From positions 1-64,000 of the forward strand of contig NZ_SMKO01000017.1 in assembly GCF_004348685.1 (NCBI RefSeq): a stretch of DNA of 64,000 nucleotides, in the 5' to 3' direction. The position numbers and the translations under genes are program-made. The notes beneath the pieces were generated by a model. The model did no database searches. It saw only the letters and a program-made list of their open reading frames with translations, and was not told the DNA's origin. Shown piece by piece: positions 35,187 through 48,283 of this stretch. Source of the stretch: Nonomuraea deserti (GTDB taxonomy: Bacteria > Actinomycetota > Actinomycetes > Streptosporangiales > Streptosporangiaceae). The number at the start of each line of letters is the position of its first letter. Within the stretch, counting starts at the first letter, position 1.

Positions 35187-35588
35187 CCCGAACGTCCCAA
35201 CGGCCCCGGTCTCGGCCCGGCCGTCCGTGACGTGTGCCCGCGCCGCCGACTGGGCCGCCACGACGGACACTCGGTGGCCGAGCGGGCGTTCCTTCGCCGA
35301 CCATCCACGCCCCCGTGGGCTTGTGTGTCATTTCGATGCCGCTCGTTCGATGGGTGATTCCACACGGGCAAGGGCCGTCGGCCCGTCGTAGCCGCGCCGG
35401 CGATCCTCTGTTCTCGCCGTATCAGCACTGCCGTGCGCTCGGCTCCAGGTCGGCGGCAAGCCTCCAGGGCGAAGCGTTTCAGAATATAGACGGTCGTCGT
35501 TCGTTCTTGTAATGTTGCGGCAGGCCGCACTCTGACAGCGATGGCTGCGTCGTCAGACGGCTGCCGAACGACGTGAGAGGACAATCGC
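35187..35588. other. Upstream region of the catabolic operon
   Basis: About 400 bp without a recognisable gene. The right half is less GC-rich and holds the shared 22-bp element at 35477-35498 and a TTGTAAT sequence at 35507-35513 that may be a -10 region. Frames in the left half do not resemble a protein by eye. The gap leads into the decayed gene at 35589. Confidence 0.5.
35477..35498 (+). promoter_or_regulatory. Shared operator-like element, copy 1 (catabolic operon)
   Basis: TTTCAGA, five bases, GACGGTCGTC. The second part is an inverted repeat (GACG-GT-CGTC). The same arrangement with the same 5-bp spacer occurs at 43459-43480 upstream of the aromatic-acid transporter, in the same orientation relative to the gene. 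A TTGTA sequence follows within 8-10 bp in both. It is probably the binding site of the PaaX-like regulator. Confidence 0.65.
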
Positions 35589-35744
35589 ATGGCCCCGACC
35601 ACCCGGCTCCCCACGACCCGCACCGCCCGGATCGTGGGTCCGGCACGTTCTGGAGGGCGCCCGGACACCTTCCGCTTCTCCGACGACCCCGTTCTCGAGG
35701 CCCTCGGCCTCGCCCGTGTCTCCCAACAGGAGGTCGCCCGATGA
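35589..35744 (+). pseudogene. Decayed C-terminal fragment of a gentisate 1,2-dioxygenase-like cupin
   Basis: A 51-codon frame. Its end, GRPDTFRFSDDPVLEALGLARV, matches the closing strand and helix of gentisate 1,2-dioxygenase (typically FSFSDRPVxEALGLxRE). The start TTRLPTTRTAR resembles the opening of the second cupin (LRLPAGxRT). Between them, frame +1 reads GSWVRHVLEGART, like the cupin strand STVWHVLEGxGT. So three cupin pieces lie in two frames with deletions. The stop still overlaps the next ATG (ATGA), showing it was part of the operon. It could be read as a 51-residue hypothetical protein. Confidence 0.6.
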
Positions 35745-36553
35745 GACTCGCGACGATCCGGACCGCCGACGGCAACGCCGCGGTCCGCGTCGACGACGAC
35801 GCCGCTGTTGAACTGGGCGCCGCCGACCTCGGCGCGTTCCTGGCCGACCCGGCCTGGCGGGCGGCCGCCGAGAACGCCGACGGCCCGCGGCACGACCTCG
35901 CCGGCCTCGACTACGCGCCGCCGATCCCGCGGCCCGAGAAGGTGATCTGCGTCGGGCTGAACTACCGGACGCACATCCTGGAGATGGGCCGCGAACTCCC
36001 CGCGTATCCCGCGCTGTTCGCCAAGTACGCGCGCGCCCTGGTCGGCGCGTACGACCCCGTCGAACTGCCCGCCGGATCCGCGGAGGTCGACTGGGAGGCC
36101 GAACTCGGCGTCGTCGTCGGCGCCACCGTACGGCACGCGTCGCTGGAGCAGGCCGCAGCCGCGATCGCGGGCTACACGGTGGTCAACGACGTCACCGCCC
36201 GCGACTACCAGTACCGCTCGGTGCAGTGGCTGCAGGGTAAGACTTTCGAGCGCAGCACGCCCGTCGGACCCTGGCTGGTGACCGGCATCCAGCCCGGCGA
36301 GGTCTCATGCCGGGTCGACGGCGACGTGGTCCAGCGGGCCGACACCGCCGACCTCGTGTTCGGCCCCGCCGACCTGATCGCGTACATCTCGAAGATCATC
36401 ACGCTGGTCCCGGGAGACATCATCGCCACCGGCACCCCTGGCGGGGTCGGCCACGCGCGCAAGCCTCCCCGTTATCTCGGCGAAGGCTCGGAGCTGGTGA
36501 CCCGGGTCGAGGGCGTCGGCGAGCTCCGCAACAGGATCGTCAAGGGAGAATGA
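35741..36553 (+). CDS. Fumarylacetoacetate hydrolase-family protein (fumarylpyruvate hydrolase-like)
   Basis: A 270-residue enzyme of the FAH family. An N-terminal small domain (1-60) precedes VICVGLNYRTHILEMG (about 68-83). The metal site shows DWEAELGVVVG, with Glu119 and Glu121, and VVNDVTARDYQYRS with Asp150, then GKTFERSTPVGPWLVT and PGDIIATGTPGGVGHA. In gentisate pathways the family member splits fumarylpyruvate to fumarate and pyruvate; the operon suggests this role. Some members are instead decarboxylases or isomerases. AGGAGG precedes ATG 35741. Its stop overlaps the next start. Confidence 0.85.
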   Translation: MRLATIRTADGNAAVRVDDDAAVELGAADLGAFLADPAWRAAAENADGPRHDLAGLDYAPPIPRPEKVICVGLNYRTHILEMGRELPAYPALFAKYARALVGAYDPVELPAGSAEVDWEAELGVVVGATVRHASLEQAAAAIAGYTVVNDVTARDYQYRSVQWLQGKTFERSTPVGPWLVTGIQPGEVSCRVDGDVVQRADTADLVFGPADLIAYISKIITLVPGDIIATGTPGGVGHARKPPRYLGEGSELVTRVEGVGELRNRIVKGE

Positions 36554-38124
36554 TGCGCGTCGCAGTAGCGGGTGGCGGCCCCGGCGGGCTCTTCTTCGCC
36601 ACCCTCATCCGACGGGCCGACCCGTCGATCGAGGTCACCGTGTTCGAGCGGAACCGCGCGGACGACACCTTCGGCTTCGGCGTGGTGTTCTCCGACCGGA
36701 CGCTGGCCGGCATCCACGAAGCCGACCCGGTGCTGCGCGAGGCACTCGACGCGCACGGCCGTCACTGGCAGGACATCGAGGTACGGCTCAAGGGCGAGCG
36801 GATCCACTGCGGCGGCAACGGGATGGCCGCCATCGTCCGGCGTACGCTGCTCACCCTGTTGCAGGCGCGGGCCCGCGACGTCGGCGCCGAGCTTCGCTTC
36901 TCCACCGAGGTGACCCTGGACGACCTCGGCGGCTACGACCTGGTGGTCGCGGCTGACGGGACCGGTTCCCAGATCCGCGAGCGGCTCGCGGCCGATCTGG
37001 GAGTCGAGGTCGAGACCGCCACCGCCAAGTTCATCTGGTTCGGCACCGACTACATGTTCGACGGGCTGACCTTCGTCTACGAGCGCGGCCCCCACGGCGC
37101 CTTCGCGGTGCACGGCTACCCCATCTCCGAGGACATGTCCACGTTCATCGTGGAAACCGATGAGGCGTCCTGGCGCCGCGCCGGGCTCGACGAGTTCGAC
37201 GTGACGAGCCCACCGGGCGCCAGCGACCTGAAGTCGAAGGCGTACCTGGAGAAGCTGTTCGCCGGCCAGATCGACGGCAGGCGACTGCTCACCAACAACT
37301 CCCGTTGGGGCAACTTCCGCACCCGCCGCACCCGCACGTGGCACACCCTGACGCCGCGTCCGGTCGCGCTGCTCGGTGACGCCGTGCATACCGCGCACTT
37401 CTCGGTCGGGTCGGGTACGAAGATGGCGATGGAGGACGCGGTCGAACTCGCGCGTGCGCTCGTCAACCACCCTGGCGACATCCCCGCGGCGCTCACCGCC
37501 TACCAGGAGGCCGCGCAGCCCTCGGTGCGCAGGATCCAGGAGTCGGCACGGCCGAGCCTGGCCTGGTGGGAGCACTTCGGCCGATATCACGACCACTTCG
37601 AGCCGTGGCAGTTCGCCTACCACTTCCTGTCCCGCAGCATCACCGACGAGCGGCTCGCCCGCCGGGCCCCCGATTTCATCGCCGCCAGCCACGCCGGCTG
37701 GGTCGCCGCGTACGGCGCCGAGCCGCTGCGCACGCCGTTCGAGAACGCCGGCTGGTCGGCACCGGGCCGGCTGGTGGGGGTGGCGACAGCGGCCGATGGC
37801 ACCCCGACGGCGGTCCGGGGCGCCCCCGCCCTGGTGCTCTCGGCGGACCGGATCCCCGGCCCCTGGGGTGCGGTGGTGCGGGCGCCGGATACCGAGGCGG
37901 GACTGCCCCAGGTCTTCGGCCGGCTCGCCGAGTTGCCGGCAAGCAGCGGCCTGGTTCTGGCCGCCGTCCACGGCGGGACGCCGCTGACCCGGACGCTGGT
38001 GTGCGAGCAGGCGCGCATGCGGGAGCGGATCCCCGCCCTGCTGATCGACCCCGAACCCGACACCGACCGCGCGGTGACCACCGTCCTGTCCGGCCGCGCC
38101 GACCTGATGGGAGCCGCAGAGTGA
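36553..38124 (+). CDS. FAD-dependent aryl-CoA hydroxylase (salicylyl-CoA 5-hydroxylase-like)
   Basis: A 523-residue flavoprotein monooxygenase. The FAD dinucleotide fold begins VAVAGGGPGGLFFATLIRR, and the second FAD motif is ALLGDAVHTAHFSVGSGTK (272-290) with GD at 275-276. HGYPISEDMSTFIVETDE lies in the middle domain. It resembles the SdgC group, which hydroxylates salicylyl-CoA to gentisyl-CoA with NADH and oxygen. The last 50 residues (CEQARMRERIPALL, then TTVLSGRADLM) look like the end of an old-yellow-enzyme barrel, known in longer bifunctional relatives. ATG 36553 is preferred to 36550. Coupled to both neighbours. Confidence 0.8.
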   Translation: MRVAVAGGGPGGLFFATLIRRADPSIEVTVFERNRADDTFGFGVVFSDRTLAGIHEADPVLREALDAHGRHWQDIEVRLKGERIHCGGNGMAAIVRRTLLTLLQARARDVGAELRFSTEVTLDDLGGYDLVVAADGTGSQIRERLAADLGVEVETATAKFIWFGTDYMFDGLTFVYERGPHGAFAVHGYPISEDMSTFIVETDEASWRRAGLDEFDVTSPPGASDLKSKAYLEKLFAGQIDGRRLLTNNSRWGNFRTRRTRTWHTLTPRPVALLGDAVHTAHFSVGSGTKMAMEDAVELARALVNHPGDIPAALTAYQEAAQPSVRRIQESARPSLAWWEHFGRYHDHFEPWQFAYHFLSRSITDERLARRAPDFIAASHAGWVAAYGAEPLRTPFENAGWSAPGRLVGVATAADGTPTAVRGAPALVLSADRIPGPWGAVVRAPDTEAGLPQVFGRLAELPASSGLVLAAVHGGTPLTRTLVCEQARMRERIPALLIDPEPDTDRAVTTVLSGRADLMGAAE

Positions 38125-40202
38125 TCCGCACCGCACCGGGGACGACGCGGCGACCGAACAACCTCGCCCCGCTGTTCGCGCCGCGCGGGATCGCCGTCGT
38201 CGGCGCGTCACGAACCCGGAACAAGCTCGGTGCCGCCCTTGCCCGTTCCCTGTCCGGGTTCGCCGGCGAAGGGGGTCACCTCGCGCTGGTCAACCACCGC
38301 GACGACACCATGTACGCTTCGGTGCGCGACGCCGCGGAGAACGGACCGGTTGACTTGGCGATGATCTGCGTACCGGCGCCGGCCTGCCCGGCTGTGCTCG
38401 CCGAGGCCGCGGCGGCCGGCGCGCGGGCCGCGGTGATCTGTGGCGGGGGCTTCGCCGAGGCCGGCGGCCCGGGGATCGGGCTGCAGCGCGAACTCGCCGA
38501 GGTCGTCGCCGAGTCCGGCATCCGGCTGCTGGGCCCGAACACGAGCGGTTTCCTGGCCCCCCATGCCGGTGTCACCGCCAGCTTCGTCCCCGGCATCGCC
38601 CAGGTACGGCCCGGCAGGGTGGCCATCGTCGCGGCGAGCGGCGGGGTCAACCACGCGCTGGCGTTCCTGCTGGGCGAGGCCGGACACGGGATCAGCCTCG
38701 CCGTCGGCCTGGGCAACGGGGTCGACATCACCGCCCCCGACGTCCTGGACTATCTCGCGGACGACCCCGCGACGGGCGCCGTCGCGCTGCACGTCGAATC
38801 GGTCGCGGACGGCGCGCGCCTGGTCGCCGCCGTACGCCGGGTCGCGGCCCGCCTTCCGGTCGTCGCGCTCGTGGTCGGCAAGCACGACGTGGGCGCCTTC
38901 GCCGCGTCGCACACCGGCGCGCTCGCGACGTCCTGGCGGACCGCCCGGGCCGCGCTCGCGCAGGCCGGGGCCGTGCTCGTCGACGATGAGCGGGAACTGG
39001 TGGACGCTGTCGGCGCGCTCGCCGTCACCCGCGCCCGCCCCTGCGCCGAGCCCGGCGTGGGCGTGGTCACCGCGCAGGCGGGACCCGGCCTGCTGTTGCT
39101 GGACGACCTGCGGGGCCGCCGGGTGAACGTGCCTGAGCTGGCCGCCGCCACCCAGGAGACGCTGGCCGGGATCCTGCCGCCGCTCACCTTCCAGCGCAAC
39201 CCCGTCGACACCGGACGCCCCGGCCCCGACCTCGGCCGCGTACTGGCCACTGTCGGCGCCGACCCCGAAGTCGACGTGATCGCGGCGTACGCGCTGCACG
39301 AGCCCGACGCGGTGGACCTCGTTGCCGCCGCCCGGGAGGGCCGCGCGGCGGGGGTGCCCATCGTGCTGGGCCTGGGCGGGGTCGGCGAGCAGGTCGTCCG
39401 GAACCGGCGAGCCCTGCTCGACGCCGGAATCGCCGTGGCCACCGAGCCGCGCGGAGTGGCCGCGGCGACGGCCGCGCTGCTGGCCGACGCCCGCGCCCGC
39501 CGCTCCGTCCCCGCGACGCCCCCGGCCGGCGACGTGCCGACCGGCATCACCGGCGCGTACGACGAGCACCAGGCGAAGGAACTGCTCGGCCGGCTCGGCG
39601 TGGCGACCATGCCGCGGCGGGTGTGTCACGACCGGTCCGCCGCGCACGCGGCGCTCGCCGAGCTGGGCGGGCCGGTCGCGGTCAAGGTGCTCGACGCAGC
39701 GATCCTGCACAAGACCGAGGTCGGCGGGGTGCACCTCGGCGTCTCGGCCCCGGCCGAACTCGATGCGGTGCTCGACAAGCTCGACGCGATCGGCGCAGAC
39801 CGCTACCTCGTGGAGACGATGGCGCCGCCCGGGGTCGATCTGGTCGTCGGCGCGCGCCGCGACCCCGTTTTCGGGCCGCTGGTGCTTCTCGGCCTCGGTG
39901 GGACGACAGCCGAGGCACTGGCCGACGTCGCCCTCCGCCTCGCCCCGCTCACCGCGGCGGAGGCTGCCACCATGCCCGGGGAACTGGCCGGCCGGGCCCT
40001 GCTCGACGGTTGGCGCGGCGGCCCCGTTCTCGATCCCGATGAGCTGGGTGCCGTGGTCACCGCCCTCGGCGAGCTCCTTGCCGCCAATCCCACACTCGAC
40101 GAAATCGAGGTGAACCCGATGCGGGTCACCGTTGACGGTCTGGTCGCGCTCGACGCCGTGATCATCACTGAGGAGGCCGACGATGCCCAGCCTGATCAAT
40201 GA
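38121..40202 (+). CDS. NDP-forming acyl-CoA synthetase, fused subunits (aryl-CoA formation)
   Basis: A 693-residue single-chain enzyme. CoA-binding domain (about 12-140) begins LFAPRGIAVVGASRTRNKLG; succinyl-CoA synthetase-like domains follow, with SHTGALA carrying the conserved histidine 264. The C-terminal ATP-grasp domain (about 480-690) includes VAVKVLDAAILHKTEVGGVH and DEIEVNPMRV. Related acetate-CoA ligases join acid, CoA and ATP to acyl-CoA. In the salicylate (sdg) pathway a synthase forms salicylyl-CoA after AMP activation; the operon position fits such a job. GTG start overlaps the upstream stop (GTGA). Confidence 0.82.
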   Translation: MIRTAPGTTRRPNNLAPLFAPRGIAVVGASRTRNKLGAALARSLSGFAGEGGHLALVNHRDDTMYASVRDAAENGPVDLAMICVPAPACPAVLAEAAAAGARAAVICGGGFAEAGGPGIGLQRELAEVVAESGIRLLGPNTSGFLAPHAGVTASFVPGIAQVRPGRVAIVAASGGVNHALAFLLGEAGHGISLAVGLGNGVDITAPDVLDYLADDPATGAVALHVESVADGARLVAAVRRVAARLPVVALVVGKHDVGAFAASHTGALATSWRTARAALAQAGAVLVDDERELVDAVGALAVTRARPCAEPGVGVVTAQAGPGLLLLDDLRGRRVNVPELAAATQETLAGILPPLTFQRNPVDTGRPGPDLGRVLATVGADPEVDVIAAYALHEPDAVDLVAAAREGRAAGVPIVLGLGGVGEQVVRNRRALLDAGIAVATEPRGVAAATAALLADARARRSVPATPPAGDVPTGITGAYDEHQAKELLGRLGVATMPRRVCHDRSAAHAALAELGGPVAVKVLDAAILHKTEVGGVHLGVSAPAELDAVLDKLDAIGADRYLVETMAPPGVDLVVGARRDPVFGPLVLLGLGGTTAEALADVALRLAPLTAAEAATMPGELAGRALLDGWRGGPVLDPDELGAVVTALGELLAANPTLDEIEVNPMRVTVDGLVALDAVIITEEADDAQPDQ

Positions 40203-41883
40203 GCACATCGTGCCCTGGCCTCGGGCGGAGGCGGAGCGGTTCGTCGCCGCCGGCTACTGGGCGGGCGAGCCGCTCGGGCACCTGCTGCGCGCGGCGGCCG
40301 ACCGCTTCGCCGCCGCGCCCGCGCTGGTCGACGTGACGGCGCGCGACGGCGCGGGACTCCGACTCACCCACGCCGAGCTGGTCGAGCGCGCCGATGCCGC
40401 CGCGGTCCGGCTGCTGGACCTGGGCATCGCCCCCGGCGACCGTATCGTGGTGCAACTGGGCAACGGCTGGGAGTTCGTCGTGCTCACCCTCGCCTGCCTG
40501 CGTGCCGGCGTGGTGCCGGTGATGGCCATGCCCGCGCACCGGCGGAGCGAGCTGAGCCACCTGGCGACCCACTCCGAGGCGGTCGCGATCGCGGTGGCGG
40601 ACCGGATGCGGGACTTCGACCACCAGGCGCTCGCCCACGAGCTGGCCGCCGAGGTCCGGGCCGTGACCGGCGCCGACTGGCATGTCCTGGTCGCCGGCGA
40701 CGACGTCGGCCCGGACAGCGTCGACCTTCGCGCCCTGTGCGCCGCGAGCACGGACCCGGCGGCGGACCGCGCGCGGCTCGACGCGAACGCTCCCTCCAGC
40801 AGGGACGTGGCCGTGTTCTTGCTTTCCGGCGGAACCACCGGACTGCCCAAGCTCATCGCGCGCACCCACGACGACTACGCCTACAACGCGCGGGCCAGTG
40901 CGGAGATCGCCGCCATGGGACCGGACACGGTCTACCTGGTCAGCCTGCCCGCGGGGCACAACTTCCCGCTCGCCTGCCCCGGGATCCTCGGCACGCTGCT
41001 CGTGGGCGGCAGCGTCGTCATGCTGCCGTCACCGGAGCCCTCGCGCGCCTTCGCCACGATCGCGGCCGAGGCAGTCACGCACACCGCGCTGGTCCCTGCC
41101 GTGGCCGGGCGCTGGCTGGAGCACGCGACCGCGCACGGGGCCGCCGAGCTGGCGAGCCTGCGCGTGCTGCAGGTCGGCGGCGCCCGGCTGGCCGACGAAC
41201 TGGCGCGGCAGGTGAAACCCACGCTGGGGACGGCGCTCCAGCAGGTGTTCGGCATGGCCGAGGGGTTGCTGAACTTCACCCGGCTCGACGATCCCGACGA
41301 CGTCGTGTGCACCACCCAGGGCCGGCCGCTGTGCCCGGACGACGAGGTGCGGCTGGTCGACGAGTCCGACCGTGACGTCCCCGAAGGGGAACCTGGCTCG
41401 TTGCTCACCCGAGGCCCGTACACGCCGCGTGGCTACTACCGCGCCGCCGAGCACAACGCCCGCGCCTTCACTGCCGACGGCTGGTACCGCTCGGGCGACA
41501 TCTGCCGGCGTACGCCAGAGGGCAACCTCATCGTCGAGGGCCGGGACAAGGACATGATCAACCGCGGCGGCGAGAAGATCTCCGCCGAGGAGGTGGAGAA
41601 CCTCGTCTACCGGGTGCCCGCGGTCGGACAGGTGGCCGCAGTGGCGATGCCGGACGCCGTGCTCGGCGAGCGGGTGTGCCTTTACGTGGTGCCCCGTCCG
41701 GGGACGACCGTCACGCTTGCGGAGATCCGGGAAACCCTGGAGGGCATCGGGGTGGCCCGTTTCAAGCTGCCCGAGCGTCTGGTGATCGTCGATGAACTGG
41801 TCTCGACCAAGGTGGGGAAGATCGACAAGAAGGCGCTGCGCGCGGACATCGCGAAGCGCCTGGCGACGGGGGCCGGCGCGTGA
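40183..41883 (+). CDS. Aryl-AMP ligase (salicylate/2,3-dihydroxybenzoate type)
   Basis: A 566-residue adenylate-forming enzyme of the EntE/DhbE branch. The P-loop SGGTTGLPKL (215-224) and the aryl-acid pocket motif PAGHNFPLACPG, with His259-Asn260 matching the HN pair of DhbE that contacts the 2-hydroxyl, support a hydroxybenzoate substrate. Also GYYRAAEHNARAFTADGWYRSGD and the final catalytic Lys546 in KVGKIDKKALR. It activates the acid to acyl-AMP; in the sdg pathway this feeds CoA transfer. No aryl carrier protein or NRPS is nearby, so catabolism is likelier than siderophore synthesis. Overlaps the preceding gene by 20 nt; GAGGAGG upstream. Confidence 0.85.
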   Translation: MPSLINEHIVPWPRAEAERFVAAGYWAGEPLGHLLRAAADRFAAAPALVDVTARDGAGLRLTHAELVERADAAAVRLLDLGIAPGDRIVVQLGNGWEFVVLTLACLRAGVVPVMAMPAHRRSELSHLATHSEAVAIAVADRMRDFDHQALAHELAAEVRAVTGADWHVLVAGDDVGPDSVDLRALCAASTDPAADRARLDANAPSSRDVAVFLLSGGTTGLPKLIARTHDDYAYNARASAEIAAMGPDTVYLVSLPAGHNFPLACPGILGTLLVGGSVVMLPSPEPSRAFATIAAEAVTHTALVPAVAGRWLEHATAHGAAELASLRVLQVGGARLADELARQVKPTLGTALQQVFGMAEGLLNFTRLDDPDDVVCTTQGRPLCPDDEVRLVDESDRDVPEGEPGSLLTRGPYTPRGYYRAAEHNARAFTADGWYRSGDICRRTPEGNLIVEGRDKDMINRGGEKISAEEVENLVYRVPAVGQVAAVAMPDAVLGERVCLYVVPRPGTTVTLAEIRETLEGIGVARFKLPERLVIVDELVSTKVGKIDKKALRADIAKRLATGAGA

Positions 41884-41962
41884 CCGCCCGGCGCGACCCG
41901 CCGCTCCCTTTTCCGTGAACTGCTCGCAGCCCTTACCGGGTAACGAACCCGCGGACGCAGGA

Positions 41963-41998
41963 GCACCGCCGGCATGCTCGCTGGCATGCCGGCGGTGC
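41963..41998. terminator. Perfect bidirectional hairpin
   Basis: GCACCGCCGGCATGC (41963-41977) pairs fully with GCATGCCGGCGGTGC (41984-41998) around a 6-nt loop, between the converging aryl-AMP ligase and transporter genes. No T run. Confidence 0.85.
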
Positions 41999-42005
41999 AC
42001 ATCGG

Positions 42006-43382
42006 TCATGGCCGCGCTGACGCGCTGTCCCGGGTCGGGACGCTGATGCCGCGTCGGTGCGCCGCGACCGCGCGCAGGCGCGGGACGGCGGCGATGAACA
42101 CCGTGCCGAGCAGCGCGGGAAGCACGAATCCGTAGAAGTTCCACTGGAAACCGAGGCCGGAGCCGAGCAGCCATCCGCCGAGCAGCGGACCGAGGACCGC
42201 GCCCAGCCTGCCGACGCCCAGTGACCAGCCGAGGGCGGTGGCGCGGCTCGCCGAGGGGTAGTGGGTGGCGACGAACCCGTTGACCAGGATCTGGGTGCCG
42301 ACGCTGCCCAGTCCCGCCACCGCCACACACACCATGAGCACGGCCGTGTCGAGGCGGAGACTCATGACGTACAGGCAGAGGGTCGCGGCGAGGAAGGCGC
42401 CGGCGGTCACGATCTTCGGGCCGAACCGGTCGGCGAGGAAGGACACCGCGATCGTGCCGGCGATCGCGCCGATGTTGAGCACGAGCAGGAACTGCAGCGA
42501 GGAGCCGAGCGGGTAGCCGGCCGTCCGCATGATCTGCGGTAGCCAGGTGTTCAGGCCGTAGACCAGCAGCAGGCCGCAGAAGCTGGCCGCGCCGAACAGG
42601 AGGGTCGCGGCCAGGTTGCCGCGGCGGAACAGCAGGGCGATCGCGCCGGTACGCGTGCGGGTGTGCGCGCCGTCCGAGGCGGGCTCGCCGGCCCGGCCGG
42701 TGTCGCCGGCGACCGCGTCGAGGTCGAGCCCATAGCGGACGGCCAGCGCCTCGGCCTCGGCGCGGTGGCCGTGGGCCAGCAGGAACGCGGCCGATTCTGG
42801 AAGGTACCTGATGGCGAGCGGCAGGATCAGCACGAGCGGCGCGGCGCCGATCCAGAACATCAGCCGCCACCCATGGTCGGCGATGAGTGCCAGGGCCAGA
42901 ATTGCGGCGAGGATGCCGCCCACCGAATAGCCCGAGTACATCAGCGCGTTGTAAAGGTTGCGCCGGTCGCGCGGGGCGTACTCGACGGTGAGCGCGATCG
43001 CGGTCGGCACGACACCCCCAAGCCCGATTCCGGCGACGAAGCGGAACAAGCCGAGGAGTTCGGGGGACGGGGCGAGGGCGCAGAGGATCATGGCGGCCGA
43101 GAACCAGGCCACGCTCACAATGATGATCTTGCGTCGTCCGATGGCGTCGGTGACCGCGCCGGTGACGAGCGCGCCGATGAGCATGCCGATGAGCGCGTAG
43201 CTGCCGATGGCACCCACCTGGGCGGCGGTCAGGTGCCACGATCGGTCGGCGAGCAGGCTCGGCACCACCGATCCGTAGACGATCAGGTCGTAGCCATCGA
43301 AGACGATCGTGGCGAAACAGATGGCGACGACGGGGAGGCCGCTTCCGCGGCGGACGGACGGGGGGCGTGCATTCGCGTCCAT
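42006..43382 (-). CDS. Aromatic-acid:proton symporter (MFS, AAHS family)
   Basis: A 458-residue transporter with 12 membrane segments. The first helix carries FATIVFDGYDLIVYGSVVPS, whose DGYDL is the family hallmark of aromatic acid:H+ symporters such as PcaK, BenK and GenK; the intracellular loop has GAVTDAIGRRKIII, and the second half has ADRFGPK. Expected job: uptake of benzoate-type acids that feed the neighbouring catabolic genes. It is divergent from the PaaX-like regulator with a shared 208-bp control region. ATG 43382 is preferred to GTG 43388. Confidence 0.9.
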   Translation of the reverse strand: MDANARPPSVRRGSGLPVVAICFATIVFDGYDLIVYGSVVPSLLADRSWHLTAAQVGAIGSYALIGMLIGALVTGAVTDAIGRRKIIIVSVAWFSAAMILCALAPSPELLGLFRFVAGIGLGGVVPTAIALTVEYAPRDRRNLYNALMYSGYSVGGILAAILALALIADHGWRLMFWIGAAPLVLILPLAIRYLPESAAFLLAHGHRAEAEALAVRYGLDLDAVAGDTGRAGEPASDGAHTRTRTGAIALLFRRGNLAATLLFGAASFCGLLLVYGLNTWLPQIMRTAGYPLGSSLQFLLVLNIGAIAGTIAVSFLADRFGPKIVTAGAFLAATLCLYVMSLRLDTAVLMVCVAVAGLGSVGTQILVNGFVATHYPSASRATALGWSLGVGRLGAVLGPLLGGWLLGSGLGFQWNFYGFVLPALLGTVFIAAVPRLRAVAAHRRGISVPTRDSASARP

Positions 43383-43458
43383 GGTCACTTCCAGCGAGCG
43401 AGGTCCAGCGACCCGGCCGGGACGCCGGGCAGGTGTCGCCGAAGCTACCCATACAATG

Positions 43459-43480
43459 GACGACCGTCAAGGATCTGAAA
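43459..43480 (-). promoter_or_regulatory. Shared operator-like element, copy 2 (transporter/regulator gap)
   Basis: On the minus strand: TTTCAGA (43480-43474), five bases, GACGGTCGTC (43468-43459), identical in sequence and spacing to the copy at 35477-35498. It lies 77 bp before the transporter start and about 110 bp before the PaaX-type gene, so one protein bound here could control both, including autoregulation. Confidence 0.65.
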
Positions 43481-43590
43481 CAGAATAGGCAAATAACGCG
43501 GTTGTATAGGGAGTTCAGGAGTGTCACTTGATCAACGATCGCATGCTAGCCTGTTCGACGTAATGATCTCTGATGGTTGGAGGCAAGTCG

Positions 43591-44397
43591 GTGAAGCCGC
43601 GGTCGATCGTGTTCGATCTGTTCGGCGACTACGTGCGCTACGACGACGGCGCCGCCCCGCTGCAGACGCTCACTGATGTGCTCGCCGCCTTCGACGTCCC
43701 CGAGGCGACGACCCGGGTGGTCATGTCACGGCTCCGCAAGGAAGGCTGGTTCGACACCGAGAAGCAGGGCCGTTCGACCGTCTATCGCATGACCGACCGG
43801 AGCTGGCGCCTGCTCGACGAGGGACGCAAGCGCATCTTCCAGCGCGAGCGCGAGCCGTGGGACCGACAGTGGCGGGTGGTCATCTATCACGTGCCCGAAA
43901 CCGACCGCGGGGCCCGGGAACGCGTCCGCAAGAAGCTCCGGTGGCTGGGCTTCGGGCCGCTCGCGGCCTCCACGTGGATCTCGCCGCACGAACGGCTCCA
44001 GGAGGTCGTCGCCGGACTGGCCGACGAGCCATCCGTCCGGCTCGACCTGTTGACCAGCCGCTCGCTGGGCGCCGCCTCCGACGTCGACATGGCCGGCAGG
44101 TGCTGGGATCTGAACGAGCTGCACCTGGCCCTGCTCGCCAAGCGCGACGCGTACCAGGCGCTGCTCGCCCGCCTCACCTCGGCCCCGCCACGCGGGCGAC
44201 ACGCCCTGATCGAACGCACCCGCCTCGTCCACGACTACCGCATGCTGCCCTTCGACGACCCCGACCTGCCGCTGGAGCTGGTGCCCGCCGGCTGGGTCGG
44301 CCGCGATGTCCACGACCTCTTCCTCGACCTGCACGAACGCCTCCGCCCCGAAGCGGAGCAGTTCTGTGCCTCCCTGGGCATCGGCCCCCTGCGCTGA
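43591..44397 (+). CDS. PaaX-family transcriptional regulator
   Basis: A 268-residue regulator. The N-terminal HTH domain (about 1-70) begins KPRSIVFDLFGDYVRYDDG, then FDVPEATTRVVMSRLRKEGW and DTEKQGRSTVYRMTD. The central and C-terminal domains include WRVVIYHVPETDRGARERVR, then LRWLGFGPLAASTWISPHER, as in PaaX. PaaX represses phenylacetate genes and is relieved by phenylacetyl-CoA; by analogy this protein may sense an aryl-CoA such as salicylyl-CoA. GTG 43591 with GGAGG seven bases upstream gives the family start; the frame opens six codons earlier. It is divergent from the transporter. Confidence 0.88.
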   Translation: MKPRSIVFDLFGDYVRYDDGAAPLQTLTDVLAAFDVPEATTRVVMSRLRKEGWFDTEKQGRSTVYRMTDRSWRLLDEGRKRIFQREREPWDRQWRVVIYHVPETDRGARERVRKKLRWLGFGPLAASTWISPHERLQEVVAGLADEPSVRLDLLTSRSLGAASDVDMAGRCWDLNELHLALLAKRDAYQALLARLTSAPPRGRHALIERTRLVHDYRMLPFDDPDLPLELVPAGWVGRDVHDLFLDLHERLRPEAEQFCASLGIGPLR

Positions 44398-47578: not shown

Positions 47579-48283
47579 TCAGCGCTTGGAGACAAAAACG
47601 TGCGCGGCGACATCACGCGGAAGCTCCGCGGGAGTGTCGTCACTGTCACCGTCACCTGTCACCCGCACACCATCGTCGCTCGCCGCGAGCGTCACCTCGC
47701 GTCCGGGTTGTATCCCAACTTGCTTGAGTTTAAGCATCACAGCGGGATCGCTTTGCACTTGTTCGCTAATTCGGCGGATGACGACGGGCGTCTCCCTGGC
47801 CCCCGCGACGTCGCACATCGTGGTCAGCGCGCTGTCGCCGGACTCGGCCGCCTCTCTGGCGCCCAGCTCGGCGAGCCCGGGGATGGGGTTGCCGTGCGGG
47901 CAGACCGTGGGATTGTCGAGCAGCGTCACCAGGCGCGACTCCACGGACTCCGACATGACGTGCTCCCAGCGGCACGCCTCGATGTGCACCTCTTCCCACG
48001 GAAGCCCGATCACCTGGGTGAGCAGGCACTCCGCGAGGCGGTGCTTGCGCATCACCCGGGTGGCCAGCGTGCGCCCCAGCTCGGTCATGGACAGGTGCCG
48101 GTCGCCCTCGACGCGGACGAGGCCGTCACGCTCCATGCGCGCGACGGTCTGGCTCACGGTGGGGCCGCTCTGCTGGAGACGCTCCGCGATTCGGGCACGG
48201 AGCGGGACGATGCCCTCCTCCTCGAGCTCGTAAATCGTGCGGAGATACATCTCCGTGGTGTCGATCAGGCCGTGTGCGGTCAA
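47579..48283 (-). CDS. ideR: Iron-dependent repressor, DtxR/IdeR family
   Basis: A 234-residue metal-sensing repressor. The winged HTH contains LIDTTEMYLRTIYELEEEGI, then IAERLQQSGPTVSQTVARME and RDGLVRVEGDRHL. Metal ligands of IdeR are visible: Met12, Cys104-Glu107-His108 in EACRWEHVMSESVE, plus His81 and His100. The third SH3-like domain (from about 150) is present. IdeR with Fe2+ represses siderophore and uptake genes and activates storage; manganese specificity is less likely given the cysteine. TTG start with GGGAGGAC four bases upstream. Divergent from udgX. Confidence 0.9.
   Translation of the reverse strand: MTAHGLIDTTEMYLRTIYELEEEGIVPLRARIAERLQQSGPTVSQTVARMERDGLVRVEGDRHLSMTELGRTLATRVMRKHRLAECLLTQVIGLPWEEVHIEACRWEHVMSESVESRLVTLLDNPTVCPHGNPIPGLAELGAREAAESGDSALTTMCDVAGARETPVVIRRISEQVQSDPAVMLKLKQVGIQPGREVTLAASDDGVRVTGDGDSDDTPAELPRDVAAHVFVSKR

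Follow-up and report, generated by a model that had tools for sequence, protein, structure and literature searches.

A conserved candidate operator of a PaaX-family regulator at the salicylate catabolic locus of Nonomuraea deserti and in related actinobacteria

What is the role of a 22-bp element that stands in identical form ahead of two neighboring transcription units of Nonomuraea deserti? The element, TTTCAGA-N5-GACGGTCGTC, lies in a window of 64,000 nucleotides, the whole stretch of DNA analyzed here (NCBI RefSeq assembly GCF_004348685.1, contig NZ_SMKO01000017.1, positions 1 to 64,000). It occurs at 35477-35498 on the plus strand, directed toward a putative salicylyl-CoA/gentisate operon whose first start codon is at 35589, and at 43459-43480 on the minus strand, directed toward the start (43382) of an MFS transporter gene. 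The gene of a PaaX-like protein (paaX, 43591) is divergent from the transporter gene. We consider it very probable that the element belongs to the operator of this protein, which would repress the operon, the transporter gene and paaX until an aryl-CoA releases it.

The pair was first proposed in a sequence-only reading of the window, which stated that both blocks and the spacer length are identical at the two places and that each copy faces the gene it precedes. This is exact, with 0 mismatches in either copy. No other exact copy is present in the 10.69-Mb genome of N. deserti, where the next best match has 2 mismatches (contig C436; a further match, on C410, has 3). The bare pair is weak evidence because repeated gapped words are so common in the window: 190 distinct words of the form 7-N5-10 occur at two or more places, versus 3-9 in Markov-1 sequences (n = 6), in a count to which each of the overlapping words from a longer repeat contributes. 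The weight of the pair thus depends on its position and its conservation.

The sequence-only reading had suggested looking for the element beside orthologous operons in related genomes, where its absence would count against the idea; the search was run and the element was found to be conserved. A paaX gene (E<=1e-60) is carried by 7 of 54 same-genus genomes, N. deserti included. In the six others, the best match beside paaX has 3-4 mismatches to the original pattern and represents the same element (e.g. TTTCAACTCATTGACGATCGTC). Our set of relatives comprised at least 80 named loci (80 among the matches listed; 1.52 Mb), and in genera such as Kribbella, Streptomyces and Actinoplanes the element precedes paaX, the MFS gene or the operon. 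De novo Gibbs sampling of 62 non-redundant sequences from 81 paaX upstream regions of relatives, with the window left out, returned the motif cGTgtCAnnnnnttGACGnyCGT at 21.1 bits versus 10.2-10.4 bits in four shuffled sets, the effort being uneven (12 restarts of 120 rounds for the real set, 3 of 80 for the shuffled sets). A scoring matrix was built from 41 of the 62 Gibbs sites, selected by visual inspection; the 21 rows dropped as weak or doubtful include L019 and that of G030, which came from the wrong side of paaX. Over the 80 loci this matrix gave 100 matches above 20 bits, versus none when reversed.

At a threshold of 14 bits, 156 sites were obtained after matches within 30 bp were merged, and 128 of them have the start of a target gene within 300 bp. 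A gene on either strand was counted as a target if its match to a target protein began in the first 40 residues; the target proteins were AcdH, fumarylacetoacetate hydrolase (FAH), SdgC, SdgB, SdgA, MFS, PaaX and ABH of the window, a dioxygenase and an esterase. Ten column-permuted matrices gave 1-6 sites at the same threshold (0-3 with a target), and the reversed matrix gave 1. At least one site is present in 75 of the 80 loci, and two or more in 47. A site lies within 260 bp upstream of paaX in 66 of 79 loci, this being the region on which the matrix was trained. Outside the training region, a target was found for 54 of 82 sites: MFS (21), SdgC (15), gentisate dioxygenase (14), esterase (3), PaaX (2) and FAH (1), two sites having two targets each. 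The other 28 sites are targetless, and eight of these are located within homologous genes.

When the window itself was scanned (about 128,000 positions), the four best scores (30.7, 26.4, 26.4 and 17.8) all fell in the two control regions. Below these the scores dropped to 13.7 in fifth place, and no position scored more than 6.1 with the reversed matrix. Sites in the window have the form GTKTCA-N8-GACGGTCGTC. Two of the four, A and D, are additions to the pair described before. The candidate sites, and the promoter boxes read from the sequence, are as follows.

35321-35346, plus strand: candidate operator site A, score 26.4, 151 bp upstream of site B, mirror partner -3.0
35472-35497, plus strand: candidate operator site B (the first copy of the 22-bp element, extended to 26 bp), score 26.4, mirror partner 1.7
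35487-35492, plus strand: predicted -35 box TAGACG in site B
35510-35515, plus strand: predicted -10 box TAATGT of the site B promoter, 17-bp spacer
43442-43447, minus strand: predicted -10 box TAGCTT of the site C promoter, 17-bp spacer
43460-43485, minus strand: candidate operator site C (the second copy, extended), score 30.7, the best in the window
43465-43470, minus strand: predicted -35 box TTGACG in site C
43517-43542, plus strand: candidate operator site D, facing paaX, score 17.8, fourth in the window, mirror partner -11.1

The structure of the sites was examined in the 107 distinct ones that exceed 20 bits. When the opposite strand was scored, a mirror partner at offset 18 reached a mean of 10.4, versus -10.1 for the second-best offset and -33.9 for the median; the partner exceeds 8 in 72 of the 107 sites. 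Because of this mirror copy, the full operator is predicted to be a dyad of 36-44 bp, GTGTCA-N8-GACG-nn-CGTC-N8-TGACAC, and the 22-bp unit would be only part of it. In the window, the dyad covers 35472-35515 at site B, including a weak mirror half, and 43442-43485 at site C, the only site with a clear mirror half (score 13.6, at 43442 on the plus strand). Site A carries TGATTC at the outer mirror position. The -35 box (TTGACG) is located within the operator, and the -10 box of the relatives, xAxxxT (A 80%, T 79%), lies over the right arm at 18-bp spacing. By eye, the sites fall into two classes: dioxygenase and operon promoters carry TAGACG or a near variant (site B, L029, L031, L065 and L094), and promoters that are divergent or belong to transporter genes carry TTGACG (site C). 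The class of site B, GTTTCAnAATCTAGACG or near, precedes gentisate dioxygenase operons in the same four loci. In Nonomuraea guangzhouensis, the closest relative, the MFS gene follows paaX on the same strand and is no longer divergent; sites are found upstream of paaX (facing away), ahead of the MFS gene and ahead of both copies of the dioxygenase operon. This layout is expected if every transcription unit requires its own site.

The presence of the site follows the regulator rather than the operon. A refined pattern, GTKTCANNNNNTWGACGNYCGT, was scanned in 345 genomes of the order and gave 8 perfect matches spread over 7 genomes, versus 2 for the backwards pattern. Of the 12 genomes that have a PaaX orthologue (E<=1e-50), 6 contain a perfect match, compared with 1 of the 333 others (Fisher test, 2.8e-9). 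The six PaaX-bearing genomes each have one copy beside paaX, and the second copy of N. deserti is at the operon; in the seventh genome, G221, the match lies inside an MFS-like reading frame. Matches of GTKTCANNNNNTWGACGNYCGT with one mismatch elsewhere in the N. deserti genome (contigs C5 and C188) were discarded, as the matrix gave nothing above 12 bits there. Full-length SdgC orthologues (52-78% identity) are present in 24 of the 345 genomes, 12 with PaaX and 12 without detected PaaX. In 11 of the 12 genomes with both, a site is present at the operon locus, with scores of about 15.6-37.6. The site stands ahead of the operon itself in nine (G000, G006, G019, G030, G045, G046, G146, G253 and G259) and ahead of paaX, with the operon following on the same strand, in G082 and G341. 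In the 12 genomes without detected PaaX, the best scores were 5.7-14.5 and never stood ahead of the operon; the two scores just over 14 are about 8 kb from the operon (L203) and within the hydroxylase gene (L210). These results agree with the regulon of operon, transporter and regulator put forward in the sequence-only reading, since the element is conserved beside orthologous operons, transporter genes and paaX and tracks the PaaX-like gene, not the operon. The promoter of the regulator itself joins this regulon through the weaker site D, about 50 bp ahead of the GTG start of paaX.

N. deserti encodes three PaaX paralogues (L010-L012), which are 36, 31 and 26% identical to the PaaX-like protein. 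At two of these loci, no site above 12 bits was found in the surrounding 3.8 kb. At L012 (position 1460, G000:C288), a site-like sequence of 16.5 bits lies just ahead of the 26%-identical paralogue.

Several observations weigh against the assignment of the element to PaaX. Site D is weak, the mirror halves are poor at sites A, B and D, and the predicted -10 boxes of the window have a 17-bp spacer versus 18 bp in the family. No site above 14 bits was found in 5 of the 80 loci (L085, L088, L095, L096 and L097, the last a fragment). In G042, a distance of 230 kb separates the salicylate operon (L214 7921-13952) from paaX, and the operon lacks a site (best score 7.1), while paaX and a divergent esterase gene of that genome share a site of 39.5 bits; this suggests that the operon is outside the regulon or under other control. 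G163 (L212 8406-8945) speaks against the rule because PaaX is present and the site is absent: a PaaX gene (45% identity) stands beside a complete salicylate/gentisate operon, with no site above 8.4. An unread base and a change of frame break up this gene, and may explain why our PaaX search placed G163 among the 12 genomes without detected PaaX. Finally, the contrast between genomes is partly circular, as G006, G042, G045, G082, G253 and G259 supplied training sites for the matrix; the scores in the PaaX genomes that did not are 30.7 (G000), 36.6 (G019), 37.6 (G030), 35.4 (G046), 24.0 (G146) and 15.8 (G341).

How might such an operator work? From the placement of the sites we infer a scheme in which PaaX, as one dimer or as a cooperating pair of dimers, would occupy the dyad when no inducer is present. 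The inner palindrome would then cover the -35 box and the outer right arm would reach up to the -10 box, so that RNA polymerase is excluded. Three units would be shut in this way: sites A and B would act on the salicylyl-CoA/gentisate operon, site C on the aromatic-acid transporter gene and site D on paaX. Salicylate that enters the cell would become activated, and an aryl-CoA intermediate would bind PaaX and cause its release. By analogy with PaaX and phenylacetyl-CoA, and with MeqR2, which reportedly responds to anthraniloyl-CoA, this intermediate is probably salicylyl-CoA, with which the CoA-thioesters of the pathway begin.

Other explanations of the element have to be weighed against this scheme. 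A chance repeat could draw on the 190 gapped words of the same form in the window, and is exceedingly improbable given that the element is conserved across genera and placed ahead of the same genes; it is this conservation, and not the pair alone, that rules chance out. The element might instead be a conserved promoter, that is, the -35 and -10 boxes of a particular sigma factor, with no operator function, and indeed TTGACG or TAGACG and the -10 box xAxxxT do belong to the conserved block. However, this block reaches 11 bp upstream of the -35 box, and the mirror partner at offset 18 is a feature of most sites. Site A has the element and no promoter of its own that we could recognize when -35 and -10 boxes were looked for by eye. 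In addition, the element was not found ahead of the operons in the 12 genomes without detected PaaX, nor at the remote operon of G042. We therefore regard the promoter explanation as very unlikely.

It is also conceivable that some other regulator, encoded elsewhere, binds the element and that PaaX is a mere neighbor. The five loci without a site (one of them a fragment) and the PaaX gene of G163 that lacks one are what this explanation has in its favor. On the other hand, the presence of the site tracks PaaX and not the operon, most paaX genes have a site directly upstream, albeit in the region used for training, and a core of the same form is found at promoters of the pAL1 gene cluster of Arthrobacter, which encodes two PaaX-type proteins. 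Control by another regulator is accordingly unlikely in our judgment, and the PaaX-like protein is retained as the protein that probably binds the operator.

The comparison with known systems places the operator within the PaaX family. PaaX of E. coli and Pseudomonas is a repressor that responds to phenylacetyl-CoA. A study of PaaX (PMC9493321) describes regulation of its own gene and hindrance of RNA polymerase, and gives the E. coli operator as TGATTC-N27-GAATCA. In the E. coli paaZ-paaA region we located TGATTC-N27-GAATCG and TGTTTC-N28-GAATCA, and GACGnnCGTC was found neither there nor upstream of E. coli paaX. Like the proteins of E. coli and Pseudomonas, the regulator of the window belongs to the three-domain family and its candidate operator has widely spaced inverted half-sites. 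Unlike the E. coli operator, the sites of the window clade have outer arms 24 bp apart and an inner palindrome, and none in the window shows the TGATTC-N27-GAATCA arrangement. Because of this operator, and because its score against the model of the phenylacetate-repressor equivalog (TIGR02277) was 175.9 bits, below the cut-off of 264.55, the protein was rejected as a phenylacetate PaaX; no paa enzyme was found among the nine window proteins scanned.

A closer parallel is MeqR2 of Arthrobacter sp. Rue61a, reportedly described by Niewerth and co-workers in 2013 as a PaaX-type repressor of quinaldine and anthranilate catabolism. MeqR2 is said to bind TGACGNNCGTcA across the -35 region of two promoters, to govern the catabolism of ortho-substituted benzoyl-CoA together with its own gene, and to respond to anthraniloyl-CoA. 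Plasmid pAL1 carries TGACGnnCGTnA or TnACGnnCGTCA in five positions, namely ahead of each of the two upper gene groups, at the lower operon (in the gap between the RidA and FAH genes), upstream of the PaaX gene ARUE_RS22915, and at locus 11756. ARUE_RS22915 we take to be MeqR2 from its gene position. The participation of two PaaX relatives in controlling quinaldine degradation in this strain is stated in PMC3534580. Both the window protein and MeqR2 are actinobacterial PaaX-family repressors, the former by prediction, and GACGnnCGTC, the core reported for MeqR2, overlies the predicted -35 box in site B as well as in site C. Of the MeqR2 sequence TGACGNNCGTcA, the outer T and A are conserved only in part at the sites of the window. 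Unlike MeqR2, the window protein (29% identical to ARUE_RS22915) stands in a salicylyl-CoA/gentisate pathway, and in its clade the outer GTGTCA arms of the candidate operator are strong and regular. In a protein tree it did not group with MeqR2 but fell in a separate group, in a tree with weak deep forks and long branches. The sequence-only reading was thus right that the operator is unlike the phenylacetate site of E. coli. It is not a novel kind of PaaX operator, since the same core is reported for MeqR2; what is added here is the regulon, the pathway and the regularity of the outer arms.

A more tentative generalization, which we put forward as possible though rather doubtful, is that operators of the PaaX family share a two-layer dyad, with outer half-sites about three helical turns apart and an inner palindrome, occupied by two cooperating dimers. 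The outer layer would be dominant in E. coli and the inner layer in MeqR2, and both would be complete in the salicylate clade, where the regulon would include an SABP2-like salicylate-ester hydrolase and the ligand would be salicylyl-CoA. A hydrolase gene of this type was observed in the relatives: in L156 (8099-8927) an operator stands ahead of an alpha/beta hydrolase gene whose product resembles SABP2 (E 1.6e-14 to 1y7h, with 6tj2 as the best match), and a related gene is divergent from paaX in 17 loci, e.g. L029 and L034. The product is possibly a salicylate-ester hydrolase within the regulon.

The genes of the locus are the following.

35589-35743, plus strand: gentisate 1,2-dioxygenase remnant of 51 aa that opens the operon; a large internal part is deleted in frame
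35741-36553, plus strand: FAH-family protein, probable fumarylpyruvate hydrolase (PF01557, 3.7e-64)
36550-38124, plus strand: salicylyl-CoA 5-hydroxylase-like FAD monooxygenase, SdgC-like (PRK08255, a two-domain model, 8.6e-123 over residues 2-387, below cut-off)
38121-40202, plus strand: acyl-CoA ligase of the acetate--CoA ligase (ADP-forming) type, SdgB-like (ATP-grasp_5, Succ_CoA_lig, CoA_binding_2)
40183-41883, plus strand: aryl-AMP ligase, SdgA-like (TIGR02275, 6.6e-178, below cut-off)
42006-43382, minus strand: aromatic acid/H+ symport MFS transporter (TIGR00895, 1.4e-95, below cut-off; MFS_1)
43591-44397, plus strand: PaaX-family transcriptional regulator (PF07848, PF20803 and PF08223 above gathering scores; solved PaaX repressor 8a39, 1.5e-29)

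From its N-terminus onward, the regulator has a PaaX domain, a Cas2-like domain in the middle and a PaaX_C domain. The sequence-only reading had called it the only local regulator, which is too loose: it is not strictly the sole one nearby, because a gene judged by eye from its open reading frame to encode a DtxR-like metal regulator lies at 47579-48283 on the minus strand. For the enzymes of the operon we use the names SdgA, SdgB and SdgC of Streptomyces sp. WA46. As in sdgABCD of that strain, an AMP ligase, a CoA ligase and a salicylyl-CoA 5-hydroxylase are predicted in one operon, with a gentisate dioxygenase in relatives; unlike in sdgABCD, the dioxygenase gene of the window is cut to the 51-aa remnant. 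Compared with the 361-aa gentisate dioxygenase gene of N. guangzhouensis (TIGR02272, 4.1e-75, below cut-off), the remnant has the same ribosome-site context and start and a like C-terminus, and is 310 codons shorter, in frame. The rest of the operon appears intact by eye. A second pair of gentisate dioxygenase and FAH genes is present in N. deserti (L153 6703-8564, G000:C422; the dioxygenase is 64% identical to the query from L054), with no operator above 12 bits within the 14 kb examined, and this dioxygenase may make up for the lost activity. N. guangzhouensis has two copies of the salicylate operon, L154 (C61) and L155 (C111). The C61 copy is without most of the dioxygenase and without the FAH gene, so that loss in the dioxygenase gene recurs.

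Two further observations were made in the relatives. A strong operator stands ahead of the gene of a large, secreted-looking protein of about 765-805 aa in L024 (10843), L026 (10841) and L077 (10807); the L026 protein, the sole one scanned, matched no Pfam family above cut-off. In L090 (5863), a site-like sequence of 19.6 bits precedes the gene of a molybdopterin enzyme, close to which a PaaX relative (45%) is encoded.

To our knowledge, no regulator or operator has been described for the salicylyl-CoA pathway of strain WA46, and our literature search found no description of an operator or regulon for salicylate breakdown through salicylyl-CoA. The results presented here offer a precise candidate operator and regulon for this pathway in Nonomuraea, Streptomyces, Pseudonocardia, Kribbella and others. 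The operator is a candidate part for a salicylate sensor. Within the PaaX family, it would separate the CoA-thioester-sensing relatives in salicylate clusters from the phenylacetate repressors.

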